Assembly (NCBI RefSeq): GCF_002778325.1
Contig: NZ_NESI01000012.1
Span: forward strand, 1-64,000
Direction of reading: 5' to 3'
DNA: 64,000 nt
Origin: Limnohabitans sp. B9-3
GTDB taxonomy: Bacteria; Pseudomonadota; Gammaproteobacteria; Burkholderiales; Burkholderiaceae_C
A program made the position numbers and the translations under genes. This document shows, piece by piece, positions 38,045-43,451 of this stretch (its first letter is position 1; each line of letters opens with the position of its first letter). The notes beneath the pieces are model-generated. The model worked only from the letters and a program-made list of their open reading frames with translations. It was not told the origin of the DNA and made no database searches.

Positions 38045-38449
38045 TCAACACTCATCCGCTCCATGCCCAGGCGCAGCCTGCGTGGGCACATGGTGTCGCA
38101 AGCCCACTTGCTGGTTCTTCTCATCCACAAACACCAGCTGAGGTTCATGCTTAGCCACTTGATCCTCATGCACTTGCGCAAACGAAGCAATGATCAACAA
38201 GTCACCCACGCTGGCGCGGCGTGCTGCAGAGCCGTTGACCGAAATCATGCCCGAGCCACGCTCGCCTTTGATGGCGTAGGTGATGAATCGTTCGCCGTTG
38301 TTGATATTCCAGATGTGGACTTGTTCGTTTTCACAAATGTTGGCGGCGTCCAGCAGGTTTTCATCGATGGCGCAGGAGCCCTCGTAATGCAATTCGCACT
38401 GGGTGGTGGCTACGCGGTGAATTTTGGATTTGAGCAGGGTGCGGAACAT
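38045..38449 (-). CDS. panD: Aspartate 1-decarboxylase (PanD)
   Basis: PanD makes beta-alanine for pantothenate and is a self-cleaving pyruvoyl enzyme. The 134-residue product starts [20 protein letters not shown] and has YEGSCAID with the Gly24-Ser25 cleavage site at the standard position. It also carries [17 protein letters not shown] and [17 protein letters not shown] chose the ATG at 38449 because it gives the canonical N-terminus; a longer frame adds an unrelated leader. It has no pan neighbours in the window. Confidence 0.95.
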
Positions 38450-38501: not shown

Positions 38502-38981
38502 TCAATCAGGGCTGGCTGGGTGTGGCTCAGTGGCCAGTAGGCGGGCGCGTGTGGCCATCACATCGCTCAAGGGGTTGGCCCGTGCTGCCGCAATTTCAAG
38601 GCTTGTGTAGGGCACAAAGGTTTGCGGCGCGATGTCGGTGGCCAAGGTGGTCAGCACCCAGTTGGTGACTTGGGCTACGTCTTTGTCATTCAGGCCTGAA
38701 CCCATCACGCCGGGGACTTGAACCAAAAATTTACGGCCTTCGGGGTGTTGTAAAAATCGGCCTAAGCGCCGCATGTCGGGCACTTGCCCTTGCACAGAGC
38801 CAGAACCATCCATGCCGTGACAGCCTGCGCAGTGCAGCACATAGAGGCTGCGTGGGCTGCTGGTTTTGGCGACCGACTCTGCATGGAGCCGCACAGGGGC
38901 AGCGGTACCCAACACACCCGCGCCGGTCAAAGTGGCACACAGGCTGGTCAGTACTGTCGCAAAGGCGTTGCGCAGTCGCAT
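38502..38981 (-). CDS. Monohaem cytochrome c of the amine dehydrogenase operon (second)
   Basis: The 159-residue product has a signal peptide ([20 protein letters not shown]) and one haem site [12 protein letters not shown] methionine suitable as the sixth ligand lies in [11 protein letters not shown]. It is encoded directly after another cytochrome c gene at the end of the aau operon. It is probably a periplasmic acceptor that passes electrons from the dehydrogenase to the respiratory chain. Confidence 0.86.
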
Positions 38982-39437
38982 TCAGCGTAAGCCCAATAAG
39001 GCTTGTCGTTTTTGGCGCGTTTGAGGTGGGCTACCTGCCGTTTGTCGGGCGGTCGCCAGTTCGGCGGCGGTGTAGGGTGGCTCGCCTTCGGCGCTGTTTT
39101 GCAACACACGCACATGTTGGGCCAGCAATGCTAAGGCCGCATCGTCGAGTTGTGACGCAAAGGCAGGCATGCTGCCCACAAACACTTGACCATTCACCTC
39201 AATTCGACCCGACAGGCCCTTGGTCAAAACGGTGGGCAAGTATTGGCGGTCTTTGCCCAAGGTTGGCCAGTGCGCGCCTTTGAGCGCAGGGGCCAAGCCG
39301 ACCGTGCCGCTGCCGTCGGCTTGGTGGCACGCGCTGCAATGCGCTTCAAACAAGGCAGCCCCTGGGGTTTGTGCCCAAAGGCTTTGACTGGCGAAAGCGC
39401 AGGCGAGTGCGAGCAGACGATGCCGCCACCCCATCAT
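38982..39437 (-). CDS. Monohaem cytochrome c of the amine dehydrogenase operon (first)
   Basis: The product is 151 residues. The start MMGWRHRLLALACAFASQSL gives a signal peptide cleaved near LWAQT. The haem motif is CSACHQADGSG, and VGSMPAFASQLDD supplies a likely axial methionine. Its ATG overlaps the stop of the small-subunit gene (ATGATG), so it is coupled to it. A longer in-frame frame runs antisense-like through the small-subunit gene and was rejected. It is a candidate direct electron acceptor of the TTQ enzyme, in place of azurin or amicyanin, neither of which is encoded here. Confidence 0.87.
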   Translation of the reverse strand: MMGWRHRLLALACAFASQSLWAQTPGAALFEAHCSACHQADGSGTVGLAPALKGAHWPTLGKDRQYLPTVLTKGLSGRIEVNGQVFVGSMPAFASQLDDAALALLAQHVRVLQNSAEGEPPYTAAELATARQTAGSPPQTRQKRQALLGLR

Positions 39438-39970
39438 GCCAACCCCACGATGATTGAGGTGGTGCAGTGGAACATTGAGCTGGTGTTGGCCATGCACCAG
39501 TTGATGTCGTTGTGCACACCCAGCCGGTAGCCGGGGCGTTCGCGCTCGTTGTTGTTGCACAAGCATTCGCCGCACGAGCCTTTGCCGCAACAGTCGTTGT
39601 AAGACACCAAATAGTGGCGTTCGTCTTCTGGGTTCAAGCAGGTGCCTACCCAGCTCACCTTGGACGCTTCGGTGCCCGGCGGGCATTGCGTCAGCGAGCC
39701 ACCGCAGCAGGTGCACAAGTAGCCGTCGAATGCGCAGTAGCGCCAATACTCACATTGCGTAGGGTCTAAGTTGGGTGCGGCCTTTTTGGGTTGCGCCGCG
39801 TTGGTTGACATGAACTGTCCGCTGCGGTCAAACGGCAGCATGGGCAACACCGCACCACCCACCAAGGCAACGCCAATTTTGGCGATGAGGCTGCGTCGTC
39901 CGTGGTTGTGGGCCACGTTGCGCACCGAGCGTTCGGTGAATCGGTCCAGAAGTTTTAAAAGCCATTGCAT
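39434..39970 (-). CDS. aauA: Aromatic amine dehydrogenase small subunit, TTQ-bearing (AauA)
   Basis: This is the catalytic subunit that carries tryptophan tryptophylquinone. The 178-residue precursor has a twin-arginine-type leader (GRRSLIAKIGVALVGGAVLP) and a cysteine-rich mature part. Trp107 (SKVSWVGTC) and Trp158 (NDINWCMAN) are 51 residues apart, as in all TTQ enzymes. Asp126 and Thr170 lie where the catalytic base and active-site threonine of the Alcaligenes faecalis enzyme (Asp128, Thr172) are expected, each with the same offset of two. That supports aromatic rather than methylamine dehydrogenase, though not conclusively. It is located in the periplasm. Confidence 0.92.
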   Translation of the reverse strand: MQWLLKLLDRFTERSVRNVAHNHGRRSLIAKIGVALVGGAVLPMLPFDRSGQFMSTNAAQPKKAAPNLDPTQCEYWRYCAFDGYLCTCCGGSLTQCPPGTEASKVSWVGTCLNPEDERHYLVSYNDCCGKGSCGECLCNNNERERPGYRLGVHNDINWCMANTSSMFHCTTSIIVGLA

Positions 39971-39982
39971 GACCGAACTCCT

Positions 39983-40573
39983 TTATGCGGGCGAGCCGCT
40001 GAGGTATTGCTGAATCGTGGGGGTTTGCATGTCGTGCGCGTTGAGTAAGCTGTCGAGTTGTTCGCGCGAATTCACCAAACCCTTAGACACCACCACGCCT
40101 TGTTTGTCGAGCAACACAGCGTAGGGCAAGCGCGACACGCGGTACTCCATGCCGAGTTGGGTCGACAGCACATAAGGCATGTCGCCCAAACCTTGTTGTT
40201 GCACAAACTGCAAATGCTCAGACGCTTCGCCATCGCTGGCCAAGACGATGCGCAATTGTTGACGCTCGTCCTGTGCGACGGCCTTGAGTACGGGCAGCAG
40301 TTTTTTGCACACAGGGCAAGTGGGCGACAAGAAGAACACCAAGTTGGGTAAGGCTTGGTCGCCACCAATTTGCACCACTTCCGATTGGATGCCCGTCAGC
40401 TGAAACACCGGCGAGGGGGCGCCCACGGGTGGGCCCGAGTCGGTGACTAAGGCACCCATGGGCGCGACGCGCTCAAACAACACACCCACTTGCCGCGAGA
40501 TGGCCCACAACAGCACAGCCAACACCAGCACCGCGACCCACAACAAGACCACAGAAATTGTCAAAGCGTTCAT
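39983..40573 (-). CDS. aauD: Amine dehydrogenase maturation protein (AauD/MauD)
   Basis: The 196-residue protein has an N-terminal membrane segment (ALTISVVLLWVAVLVLAVLL) and a periplasmic thioredoxin-like domain with FFLSPTCPVCKKLLPVLKAV, the CPVC redox pair. MauD-type proteins are needed for correct disulfide formation in the small subunit, which has six disulfides in studied enzymes. The ATG at 40573 shares one base with the aauE stop (TGATG). The longer frame is read-through of aauE and was rejected. Confidence 0.9.
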   Translation of the reverse strand: MNALTISVVLLWVAVLVLAVLLWAISRQVGVLFERVAPMGALVTDSGPPVGAPSPVFQLTGIQSEVVQIGGDQALPNLVFFLSPTCPVCKKLLPVLKAVAQDERQQLRIVLASDGEASEHLQFVQQQGLGDMPYVLSTQLGMEYRVSRLPYAVLLDKQGVVVSKGLVNSREQLDSLLNAHDMQTPTIQQYLSGSPA

Positions 40574-41115
40574 CACAAGCTCCCAGAAAACAGACGCTGG
40601 CGCAGCAAAGCTTGCTGCATCAGTACTTGGTGAATGGCGGTGTAGAGCACCACCATCAGCAACACGGCGGCCACCACCACGCCAAAGTCGACCCAGACCA
40701 ACTCGCGCATGTCGGCGGGTTGACTGGCGGTCCATGCCAAGGCGACCAGCAAAGTGTTTCGCAATACCAACACCCACGACACGGGCAGGGCTTGGCCGCC
40801 ACAGCCGCAGTCGATCACACGGCGTTGCAGCAATTGCAAGGCCATGGCCAAGGCGTAAACGCCCAAGAGCAGTGCGGCCAAGCCAGCGCCTAAGTTGCGC
40901 CATGGCGAAAGAAGTGCCACAGCGCTGAGGCTCTCTAGTGCGATCACCGCGCGTGCCACGATGGCACGTGCGTTCACAGGCACGCCGTAGCCTGCCAAGT
41001 GATGCACCAGTAAATCTAGGTCGGTCACTTTGAGCAGGGCTGCATGGGCAAACAACACGGTCAGTGCCGCTGCTGCAATCACGACCCACAGAGGGTTGTT
41101 CCAGATCATGTCCAT
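40573..41115 (-). CDS. aauE: Amine dehydrogenase maturation membrane protein (AauE/MauE)
   Basis: This is a 180-residue inner-membrane protein with four or five hydrophobic segments. The central RRVIDCGCGGQALPVSWVLV contains the DCGCGG motif of the MauE/DoxX-like group. MauE works with MauD in stabilising or oxidising the small subunit. It follows aauB by nine bases and precedes aauD. Start MDMIWNNPLW is supported by the family length. Confidence 0.9.
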   Translation of the reverse strand: MDMIWNNPLWVVIAAAALTVLFAHAALLKVTDLDLLVHHLAGYGVPVNARAIVARAVIALESLSAVALLSPWRNLGAGLAALLLGVYALAMALQLLQRRVIDCGCGGQALPVSWVLVLRNTLLVALAWTASQPADMRELVWVDFGVVVAAVLLMVVLYTAIHQVLMQQALLRQRLFSGSL

Positions 41116-41124
41116 GTCGTGTTC

Positions 41125-42336
41125 CTAGTCGTGCGATTCAAGGTGCATGGACGACTCGCCCGCCTTGACGACCGTGGTTTGCACGCGCTTGGGGCCGGTG
41201 TCTGACCAGCGCCAAATGGTCATGCCGCCGCGTTCGCCATCTAAGCCCTGCAGACGTTGGCCGTCGCGTGAGAAGGTGAGCGAGATCGTGCCGCGTCCTG
41301 GCACCGTGCTTAGCCGTTTGCCGCTTTGCAGGTCAAAGGTCCACAGCTGTTGGGCAGGGCGCTTGTGTGTGCCTTCGCTGCCTTGGGCGTGCATGGCGAC
41401 AACAAGGCGTTGGCCGCTGGGGTCGACCGCAAAGTTTTGGTAACCGCCCGGACGCCAGCCTTGACGCGCTGCGGCGGCATTGACCAAGGAGCGTGTCTGA
41501 CGCACAACGGCCACGGGGCCGCTGACATCGAGTTCGGTGAGTACGCCTTTAAAAGAGACAAACCAATAACGGTCGCCCACTTGCTCTGCGTGGTGAAACC
41601 ATGCATCCAGATCCGCGTCAAACAGCTGGGCGGTGGTTTGGCGATCCGTCACTTGGCCTTGTTCGTTGAGGGTGACCGTGGCCACTTTGCCGTCGCCGCA
41701 CAGCATCGAAAAACGCATGGCATGTGTGGCCGATGGCAGCACGCCCCAGCAGCCGGGTGTGGCTACTTCGGTCAGTACTTTGCGTTGGTTCAAGTCCACC
41801 ACGGTGATCGAGGTGGCGGGCGTCGCGTTTTGTACCAGCACCCAATTCCCTGTGCTGTTGGTGCGCACCAAGCCTCGGTAGTTGAGGGCTTGGGCACGTT
41901 TGGGCGGCAAGATCACCTCGTACTTAAAGCCCAAGGTTTCGGTGTCGTGCACCTCCAACACATCGGTGCGATCACCGCGTGAACTGCGACTCAGATGTGT
42001 GGTGGCCACGTACAACTCGTGGGCTGCTGGATTGACGGTGAAATTGCCTGCGTAGGCGGTGGACACCATGCCCAAGAACTTGCCCTGCTTGGCGTCAAAC
42101 ACTCGAATGCGGCCGTCAGAAATATGGCCAATCGCGATGTCGGCGACGTACACGCGTTGTGTGGCTTCTGGCGCGATGCGGCTGACTGTCAATGTCTCGG
42201 CAGGCAAGGGCTCCATGGCCACCCGCGCAGCGGGTGCAGCGTGACACAGCAACCCCGCAGCAGCCCACACCGCCCCAAGCGCGCTGTGGGTTAGCCAACG
42301 TGGCGCATGGCGTATGGTGAATATGTGCAAGGTCAC
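41125..42336 (-). CDS. aauB: Aromatic amine dehydrogenase large subunit (AauB)
   Basis: The large subunit is a seven-bladed beta-propeller that holds two small subunits. The product is about 403 residues with a signal peptide (THSALGAVWAAAGLLCHAAP). Propeller segments include TQRVYVADIAIGHISDGRI, HELYVATTHLSRSSRGDRTD and TDVLEVHDTETL. I chose the GTG at 42336 because AAGGAGG lies five bases before it. The in-frame ATGs at 42351 and 42366 lack a site, and the first of them encodes the Shine-Dalgarno itself. It heads the operon B-E-D-A-cytochrome-cytochrome and is divergent from an AraC-type regulator. Confidence 0.9.
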   Translation of the reverse strand: MTLHIFTIRHAPRWLTHSALGAVWAAAGLLCHAAPAARVAMEPLPAETLTVSRIAPEATQRVYVADIAIGHISDGRIRVFDAKQGKFLGMVSTAYAGNFTVNPAAHELYVATTHLSRSSRGDRTDVLEVHDTETLGFKYEVILPPKRAQALNYRGLVRTNSTGNWVLVQNATPATSITVVDLNQRKVLTEVATPGCWGVLPSATHAMRFSMLCGDGKVATVTLNEQGQVTDRQTTAQLFDADLDAWFHHAEQVGDRYWFVSFKGVLTELDVSGPVAVVRQTRSLVNAAAARQGWRPGGYQNFAVDPSGQRLVVAMHAQGSEGTHKRPAQQLWTFDLQSGKRLSTVPGRGTISLTFSRDGQRLQGLDGERGGMTIWRWSDTGPKRVQTTVVKAGESSMHLESHD

Positions 42337-42401
42337 AAGCCCCTCCTTCATCAAAATTTGTTTCATCCTAAGAAGGCGTGGGGCAGAGCCGCTATCGAGA
42401 T

Positions 42402-42429
42402 TTGGCACAGTTGATTCGGGGTTTGTACT
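42402..42429 (+). promoter_or_regulatory. Possible promoter of the AraC-family gene
   Basis: TTGGCA at 42402-42407 and TGTACT at 42424-42429 are spaced by 16 bases, about 26 bases before the regulator ATG. The match is moderate. This 119-base gap also has to hold the aauB promoter and the AraC-type operator, which I could not identify. Confidence 0.3.
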
Positions 42430-42455
42430 AGGGCGCAGCTGACTAAACTCACACC

Positions 42456-43451
42456 ATGTCCAACACTTGTGTTTCTGACCACCGCTTGGGGGGCCCCGCC
42501 ACGCAGCCTTGGTCACGCTTTGTCACCACCCATGATGCGCATGAGCAAGCGCAGGCGCAAGCGGGCTGGTCGCTGCAGTACGACCAAATGTCGTGCGGCA
42601 AATTTGCGGGCCAAGTTCACCTCATGCAATTGCCAGGCGTGAGCTTGGTGCATGAGGGCGCCAACCAGGCCATTCGGCAGCGCGGTGATTTGGGGGACGA
42701 CAGTTATTTGTTTGCCTTGCCAGCTTCGGCAAACGCTGGGTCGGCCTTGTTCTCTGGCGCAACGGTCGGGCAGCACGACATCATGGTCGGCCCTAGCGAT
42801 GGCCTCGATTTGTGCAGCCCTGCCCATTTCAATTTGATTGGCATCGTGGTGGATGCCGAGCTGTTGGAGTCGTTGTGGGCGCGTACCCATCACCCGTCGA
42901 TGGCGGCGTGGGTGTCGCAGCAGCGCGTGGTGTCGATTGGCGCTGACCGAGCGCAGCGTTTGCTGGCTTTGCACCATCAAATTTTTGAATGTAGCCAATC
43001 GGGATTGCCACTGGCTGCCAATACCAAGGCGCTGGAGACTTTGCGTGACGATGTGATTTTGGAATGGGTTGACACTTTGCCCTCGTTTTGCGACTTGTCT
43101 GACGTGCGTGCCACCAGCATGCGCAAAGCCGTGGTGCACCGAGCCTGTGAGTGGATGCTGCAAACCAGCGACGACGAAGCACTGTCCATGCTCGACATTT
43201 GCAAACGTGTGGGCGTGAGCAGCCGCAAGCTCAATTACTGTTTCCAAGAAATTTTGGGCATGAGCCCGATGAAGTACCAGCGCATCACGCGGCTCAACCG
43301 GACGCAGCAAGCGCTCAAGCAAGCCCATGACGGACAAAGCGTGTTTGACATCGCTTCGCGCTGGGGCTTTTGGCACATGGGGCAGTTTTCGCAAGACTAC
43401 AAACGCCTCTTTGGTGAGCTGCCCTCGACCACCTTACGGGCTTCTGCATAA
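42456..43451 (+). CDS. AraC-family regulator divergent from the aau operon
   Basis: The 331-residue product has an N-terminal sensing region of the AraC-binding-domain-like type. A C-terminal double helix-turn-helix follows (LSMLDICKRVGVSSRKLNYC, then SVFDIASRWGFWHMGQFSQD, with YKRLFGELPSTTLR at the end). The layout matches regulators of amine and aromatic catabolism such as those of the EutR/FeaR type. Its position opposite aauB makes it the probable activator of the amine dehydrogenase genes in response to an amine or aldehyde. Confidence 0.88.
   Translation: MSNTCVSDHRLGGPATQPWSRFVTTHDAHEQAQAQAGWSLQYDQMSCGKFAGQVHLMQLPGVSLVHEGANQAIRQRGDLGDDSYLFALPASANAGSALFSGATVGQHDIMVGPSDGLDLCSPAHFNLIGIVVDAELLESLWARTHHPSMAAWVSQQRVVSIGADRAQRLLALHHQIFECSQSGLPLAANTKALETLRDDVILEWVDTLPSFCDLSDVRATSMRKAVVHRACEWMLQTSDDEALSMLDICKRVGVSSRKLNYCFQEILGMSPMKYQRITRLNRTQQALKQAHDGQSVFDIASRWGFWHMGQFSQDYKRLFGELPSTTLRASA

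Follow-up and report, generated by a model that had tools for sequence, protein, structure and literature searches.

How is the tryptophan tryptophylquinone (TTQ) cofactor of an amine dehydrogenase completed where MauG is missing? The question is raised by a six-gene operon of Limnohabitans sp. B9-3 (RefSeq assembly GCF_002778325.1), which lies in the first 64,000 nucleotides of contig NZ_NESI01000012.1; this 64-kb stretch, referred to as the window, belongs to contig 4 of a genome of 3.40 Mb with a stated completeness of 100%. The operon runs on the minus strand from position 42336 down to 38502 in the order AauB-AauE-AauD-AauA-Cyt1-Cyt2, with neighbouring genes overlapping or at most 10 bases apart, and very probably encodes a periplasmic, TTQ-dependent aromatic amine dehydrogenase (AADH) of the aau type. 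A reading made from the letters alone (the sequence-only reading) had noticed that azurin, amicyanin, mauF and mauG genes are absent from the locus, and had concluded that TTQ maturation must use a distant or a different enzyme. The substrate of MauG in methylamine dehydrogenase (MADH) is a precursor whose Trp already carries one hydroxyl, and this first hydroxyl is believed to arise autocatalytically (PMC7876137). By comparing related loci we found that the second small cytochrome of the operon, Cyt2, is a dedicated partner of TTQ enzymes without a conserved distal Met; it is the best candidate inside the operon for a different TTQ-finishing enzyme.

MauG, MauF, MauJ, MauM, MauN and amicyanin were not found in the window (best tblastn E value 0.086), and the same queries do recover mauF, mauG and amicyanin in the mau loci L207–L209; the searches for MauF, MauJ, MauM and MauN covered the window only. 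Genome-wide there was no small azurin- or amicyanin-like protein by PF00127, the one cupredoxin family searched. The sole match to this family is an open frame of 386 residues with membrane stretches, as judged by eye, and an azurin elsewhere in the genome was rejected on this ground. The sequence-only reading had also proposed a genome search for MauG-like di-haem proteins, which returned no MauG and a single protein of the CCP_MauG family (PF03150; G000:C18), on contig 18 and not linked to the operon. Its best solved relative is BthA (6e1c, 4e-28), while MauG matches over part only (3e-12), and it belongs with BthA and the bacterial cytochrome c peroxidases. The absences noted at the locus thus hold, both in the window and for MauG and small PF00127 proteins in the whole genome.

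We then asked how common the absence of mauG is. The comparison comprised 135 loci: 29 from the same order, 80 from genome contigs (the top-scoring 80 among at least 558 AauA relatives), 12 from a phylum sample, 13 from plasmids (14 of 31 records were taken, and that of Thermomicrobium, L205, was left out) and the window itself. Some places are included twice, leaving 123 distinct small subunits, and since loci were chosen for their resemblance to this AauA, methylamine enzymes are under-represented. In the order, 22 of 399 genomes carry a small subunit, in 31 copies. None of the small subunits in the phylum sample of 398 genomes scored above the MADH cut-off, and the mauG-linked side of the comparison therefore rests on five plasmid loci (L201, L206–L209), in which mauG, mauF and mauJ adjoin the small subunit. 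Of 119 distinct small-subunit loci whose flanks are long enough, 114 have no linked mauG. The same B-E-D-A-cytochrome order was seen in relatives. The lack of mauF and mauG is normal for enzymes of the aau kind: the earlier observation is true of this locus, but it does not make the locus an oddity.

A MauG-family protein acting from a distance was addressed by searching PF03150 in 94 carrier genomes, for which completeness is not given where they were reached through named loci; the genome of L079 was not part of this set. A match at E ≤ 0.001 was obtained in 86 genomes (1/1, 20/21, 35/39 and 30/33 by batch) and lay above the cut-off in 85 (29 in the last batch). The eight genomes with no match at this threshold (G207, G414, G417, G428, G436, G807, G812 and G813) comprise G207, Taklimakanibacter lacteus, Devosia sp. 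LC5, Achromobacter piechaudii NBRC 102461, Rhodopseudomonas sp. B29 and three metagenome-assembled genomes (MAGs); the four with species or strain names bear no MAG label. At E values up to 10, five of them show short and weak matches, none above the cut-off. G207 is 99% complete with 0% contamination, and its small subunit scores 248.9 bits against the AADH of 2agl; Trp107, Trp158, Asp126 and Thr170 are kept in the small subunits of all eight. MauG-family genes are dispensable among TTQ carriers, and a distant MauG homologue therefore cannot be the general answer. Of the two options offered by the sequence-only reading, the distant enzyme falls in this sense and the different one remains. For Limnohabitans itself it is improbable that the BthA-like di-haem protein matures TTQ. 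Such a gene exists in the genome, and a bis-Fe(IV) state is accessible to BthA (PMC6405878). However, the same paper describes BthA as not MauG-like, the similarity to MauG is partial, the gene lies apart from the operon, and the eight genomes without such a gene at E ≤ 0.001 include that of L068 (a MAG, completeness not given), whose small subunit is 86% identical to AauA.

A conserved extra neighbour was considered as a maturase and rejected. In an all-against-all comparison of the open reading frames of 30 loci, five families occur in at least 28 loci and all lie, by coordinates, inside the stretch from AauB to Cyt2; outside it, the most widespread family that could be placed is the AraC regulator (10 of 30 loci). 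This comparison is noisy, as it contains shadow reading frames and several loci with short flanks.

Cyt2 (38502–38981, minus strand) is a monohaem cytochrome c with one CXXCH motif that may act as a TTQ-finishing enzyme or as an acceptor. We found it behind the small subunit in 120 of 126 MauG-less loci with enough flank (108 of 114 when distinct small subunits are counted), four loci that end behind aauA (L081, L099, L104 and L130) and L205 being left out of these counts. The six MauG-less loci without it are L045, L086, L127, L134, L136 and L140. At the five mauG-linked loci neither Cyt2 nor Cyt1 occurs within 7 kb. The same 399 genomes were then searched at E ≤ 1e-15 with a profile built from 58 Cyt2 proteins; the order's own copies are part of the profile, and only the best candidates per genome were scored. 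This yielded 30 copies in 21 genomes, and all 30 lie 27–584 bases from a small-subunit gene; the sole small subunit without Cyt2 in these genomes is that of G083. No Cyt2 was found on its own, whereas copies away from the enzyme would be expected if it were a general electron carrier. In the open-licence literature, outside which most subscription journals lay, we found neither this family-wide pattern, which is a new comparison, nor any report of a substitute for MauG in aau clusters.

Two readings can account for this pairing. Cyt2 might do MauG's job: a haem with an open site, oxidised by H2O2 or O2, would complete TTQ in the precursor of AADH, with Cyt1 only an electron carrier. The occurrence of Cyt2 in nearly all MauG-less loci and in none of the mauG-linked ones, its constant proximity to the small subunit and the carrier genomes without a CCP_MauG match at E ≤ 0.001 are all in line with such a role. 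Alternatively, Cyt2 could be a dedicated electron acceptor, and TTQ would form spontaneously or through a general oxidant of the periplasm. The strict pairing also speaks for an acceptor, and linkage in an operon suits an acceptor equally well. Moreover, four mauG-linked loci (L201, L207, L208 and L209) have amicyanin behind mauA, where other loci have Cyt2, so that the absence of Cyt2 could track amicyanin rather than MauG. Against an acceptor stand L206, where mauG is present and Cyt2 is missing although amicyanin was neither annotated nor found, and the 59 distinct loci that hold both Cyt2 and Cyt1, which shows that the two are not simply redundant.

The haem surroundings of the two cytochromes bear on the same choice. 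The sequence-only reading had taken both monohaem cytochromes as possible acceptors; this is likely, but they are not equivalent. The two families, whose separation started from the motif C-x-G-C-H, differ at the distal ligand: the Met of the Met-Pro ligand loop is conserved in 55 of 56 aligned Cyt1 sequences, whereas 20 of 100 Cyt2 sequences have a Met in the ligand column and 28 of 100 have one anywhere in the loop. In the Cyt2 family the haem site is kept, one Arg is nearly invariant (99/100) and another is found in 100/100. The predicted structure of Cyt2 (mean predicted local distance difference test score, pLDDT, 86.7; modelled without haem) fits Thermus thermophilus cytochrome c552 (1dt1) with a Z score of 12.5 and a root-mean-square deviation of 2.4 over 108 aligned residues. 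Cyt2 thus has a class I fold with one CXXCH, and its family does not conserve the distal Met of that class. Nothing in the Cyt2 profile matches the 17 residues that Thermus c552 has ahead of its ligand loop; the ligand in the Thermus protein is Met69. The c552 fold and the position in the operon fit an acceptor, the unconserved ligand Met does not, and together with the 17 residues left unmatched it speaks for a finishing enzyme. However, the Cyt2 of the window is among the 20 with a Met at the ligand column; a Met ligand is therefore possible for this copy, which counts against a finishing enzyme.

Next, we looked at how Cyt2 and MauG are distributed on a quick tree built from the 123 distinct small subunits. 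All mauG-linked enzymes fall in a single supported clade whose sister group, nine loci (L053–L061), has Cyt2 and a multicopper oxidase and no mauG near, a point for a finishing role of Cyt2. However, the tree program cautions that long branches connect the mauG group to the remainder, possibly falsely. One locus, L048, was labelled as having no Cyt2 on the tree by a position filter, yet carries it (181 bits). As regards the sister group itself, whose loci come from the survey of the order, its small subunits carry the MADH-type motif NDI[I/V]WC; the multicopper oxidase was matched by tblastn at 9/9 loci and by Pfam on three, and at 7/9 a further CXXCH protein follows at a distance of about 2.1 kb.

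On this tree, loci without Cyt2 occur at roughly three positions. A tandem di-haem pair was found in five of the six Cyt2-less genomes (at least 400 bits with profile A3, the next best match scoring 280) and in one (G832) of 74 other genomes; profile A3 was built from G083, G430 and G431, which match by construction. The search covered 80 of the 94 carriers, leaving out the eight without a PF03150 match and G157, G342, G818, G828, G830 and G834, and in three of the 74 (G809, G817 and G820) the aau locus ends before the Cyt2 position. The pair lies within 12 kb of aauA in four of the six genomes (G083, G429, G430 and G431) and on a 3.4-kb contig in the fifth, G804. The sixth, G803 (L086), has neither Cyt2 nor the pair, which is a point against a finishing role. 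The association of the pair with the lack of Cyt2, which speaks for a finishing role, has a Fisher p of 1.1e-6 on 85 rows when kinship is ignored. However, by parsimony two changes are enough to explain the loss of Cyt2, and a test of independent pairs finds two pairs (p = 1). Scores and tree alike set the di-haem pair apart from MauG, and in four places it adjoins an aldehyde-dehydrogenase-like or molybdoenzyme-like gene, as judged by eye, which also weakens the case. Replacement of Cyt2 by the pair, based on two or three evolutionary events, is suggestive but weak. In L127 (1590–4253) the two genes of the pair are continuous within a single open frame that contains four CXXCH motifs. The Cyt2-bearing G433 has a lone PF03150 gene, different from the pair, about 10 kb from aauA (distances by eye). 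The genome of L086 contains, at L218, a MauG-like gene beside SCO-like and selenium-binding-protein-like genes (by eye), an arrangement as in the methanethiol oxidase operons described in PMC5739008.

Taken together, the two readings of Cyt2 lie close. A dedicated acceptor comes first, although we would hold it at somewhat below even odds. A finishing enzyme follows as a tentative possibility: Cyt2 would then be a one-haem maturase that finishes most TTQ amine dehydrogenases, and, with the same reserve, the di-haem MauG found in the methylamine clade might have replaced it later.

The assignment of the enzyme as an AADH was derived from both subunits. AauA (39434–39970, minus strand; PF02975, Me-amine-dh_L, 3.2e-55) is the small subunit with the TTQ residues and a leader that, by eye, appears to be of the twin-arginine translocation (Tat) type (RRS motif). 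Its best solved relative is AADH (2agl_D, 6.5e-51; 2agl and 2ojy about 6e-51), aligned without gaps over residues 69–178. AauB (41125–42336, minus strand; PF06433, Me-amine-dh_H, 1.2e-28) is the large, beta-propeller subunit of 403 residues; its best solved relative is AADH 2h3x (3.3e-73), and its GTG start codon is preceded by AAGGAGG. MADH structures rank behind AADH for both subunits, in agreement with the aromatic type proposed by the sequence-only reading. The active-site residues named there, Trp107, Asp126, Trp158 and Thr170, are all present in AauA; that reading matches them to the Alcaligenes enzyme with a constant offset of two. Across the comparison, Trp107, Trp158 and Asp126 are invariant in 135/135 small subunits, and position 170 is T in 118 and S in 17. 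In the aau-type small subunits of five loci (L050, L200, L202, L203 and L210) the TTQ residues are kept, but the four cysteines usually present at positions 88, 89, 133 and 136 (window numbering) are missing. That the enzyme is instead a MADH of the mau type is very improbable. The subunit families are common to both enzymes, but both subunits are closer to AADH, the MADH equivalog cut-offs are not reached (TIGR02658, 111 vs 454 bits; TIGR02659, 182 vs 197 bits), the motif reads NDINWC here vs NDI[I/V]WC in the MADH-like copies compared, and the window is without mauF, mauG and mauC; we therefore rejected this identity.

The remaining genes were found at the coordinates and in the order given by the sequence-only reading, with families matched in Pfam or NCBIfam. 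AauE/MauE (40573–41115, minus strand; PF07291, MauE, 1.9e-20) is a membrane protein of a family thought to aid export or folding of the small subunit, and AauD/MauD (39983–40573, minus strand) is a thioredoxin-like disulfide protein (TIGR02661, MauD, 3e-60, above cut-off). Cyt1 (38982–39437, minus strand; one CXXCH) is a monohaem, c552-like cytochrome c, related to Thermus thermophilus cytochrome c552 (2.2e-15); it looks like a normal His/Met carrier and is most likely the electron acceptor from TTQ. The AraC-family regulator (42456–43451, plus strand; PF12833, HTH_18, 2.8e-21) is divergent, separated from aauB by 119 bases (42337–42455) that likely hold the promoter region, and panD (38045–38449) comes after Cyt2.

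From these parts a route can be proposed. AauA would be exported, folded with the help of AauE and AauD, and paired with AauB; TTQ would be built from Trp107 and Trp158 and, by analogy with MADH, finished in the periplasm without MauG. Amines would be oxidised to aldehyde and ammonia, and the electrons would leave TTQ singly to the operon cytochromes, most likely Cyt1, because no small blue-copper protein was found. Both the electron route and an operon-encoded factor that completes TTQ are inferred. For the identity of the enzyme and the route as a whole our confidence is high. Several points weigh against it. The substrate class, aromatic rather than aliphatic amines, is inferred by homology only, and AauA is 52–67% identical to the ten other aau-type copies in one alignment. 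The AraC regulator reaches 131.7 bits against the model of EutR, the ethanolamine regulator, over most of its length (cut-off 319) and 46.4 bits against FeaR; being nearer EutR, it may respond to a different inducer. Finally, L140 has no cytochrome behind aauA, and an operon cytochrome is therefore not obligatory.

In itself this is an ordinary aau operon, compared here with the closest systems. Its subunits are related to those of the Alcaligenes faecalis aau operon (PDB 2agl and 2h3x). Work by Chistoserdov in 2001 and Hothi in 2005 is said to give the Alcaligenes operon the same B-E-D-A order, with a monohaem cytochrome behind aauA and without mauFGLMN. Here two cytochromes follow aauA instead of the one in Alcaligenes, the divergent AraC regulator is a further difference, and azurin, the acceptor in Alcaligenes, has no counterpart in this genome by the PF00127 search. 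With the Paracoccus denitrificans mau cluster the operon shares the mauBEDA core; that cluster differs in having mauF, amicyanin, mauJ, mauG and genes annotated as NapG/NapH, and neither Cyt1 nor Cyt2. Among the plasmid loci, L214 (Chimaeribacter arupi, Enterobacterales) is an aau cluster with Cyt1, Cyt2 and a multicopper oxidase. On the Thermomicrobium roseum plasmid (L205) the usual cluster is missing; there are two small proteins resembling MauA, about 114 and 150 residues long, and only a gene annotated as MauE/DoxX behind one of them.

The comparison makes it testable how TTQ is finished without MauG. If Cyt2 is only an acceptor, the search shifts to self-processing or general oxidants, because in several carrier genomes no gene of the MauG family can be recognised. 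If Cyt2 is the maturase, a one-haem protein of about 150 residues would carry out an oxidation whose textbook example is the di-haem MauG, which would then be the exception.

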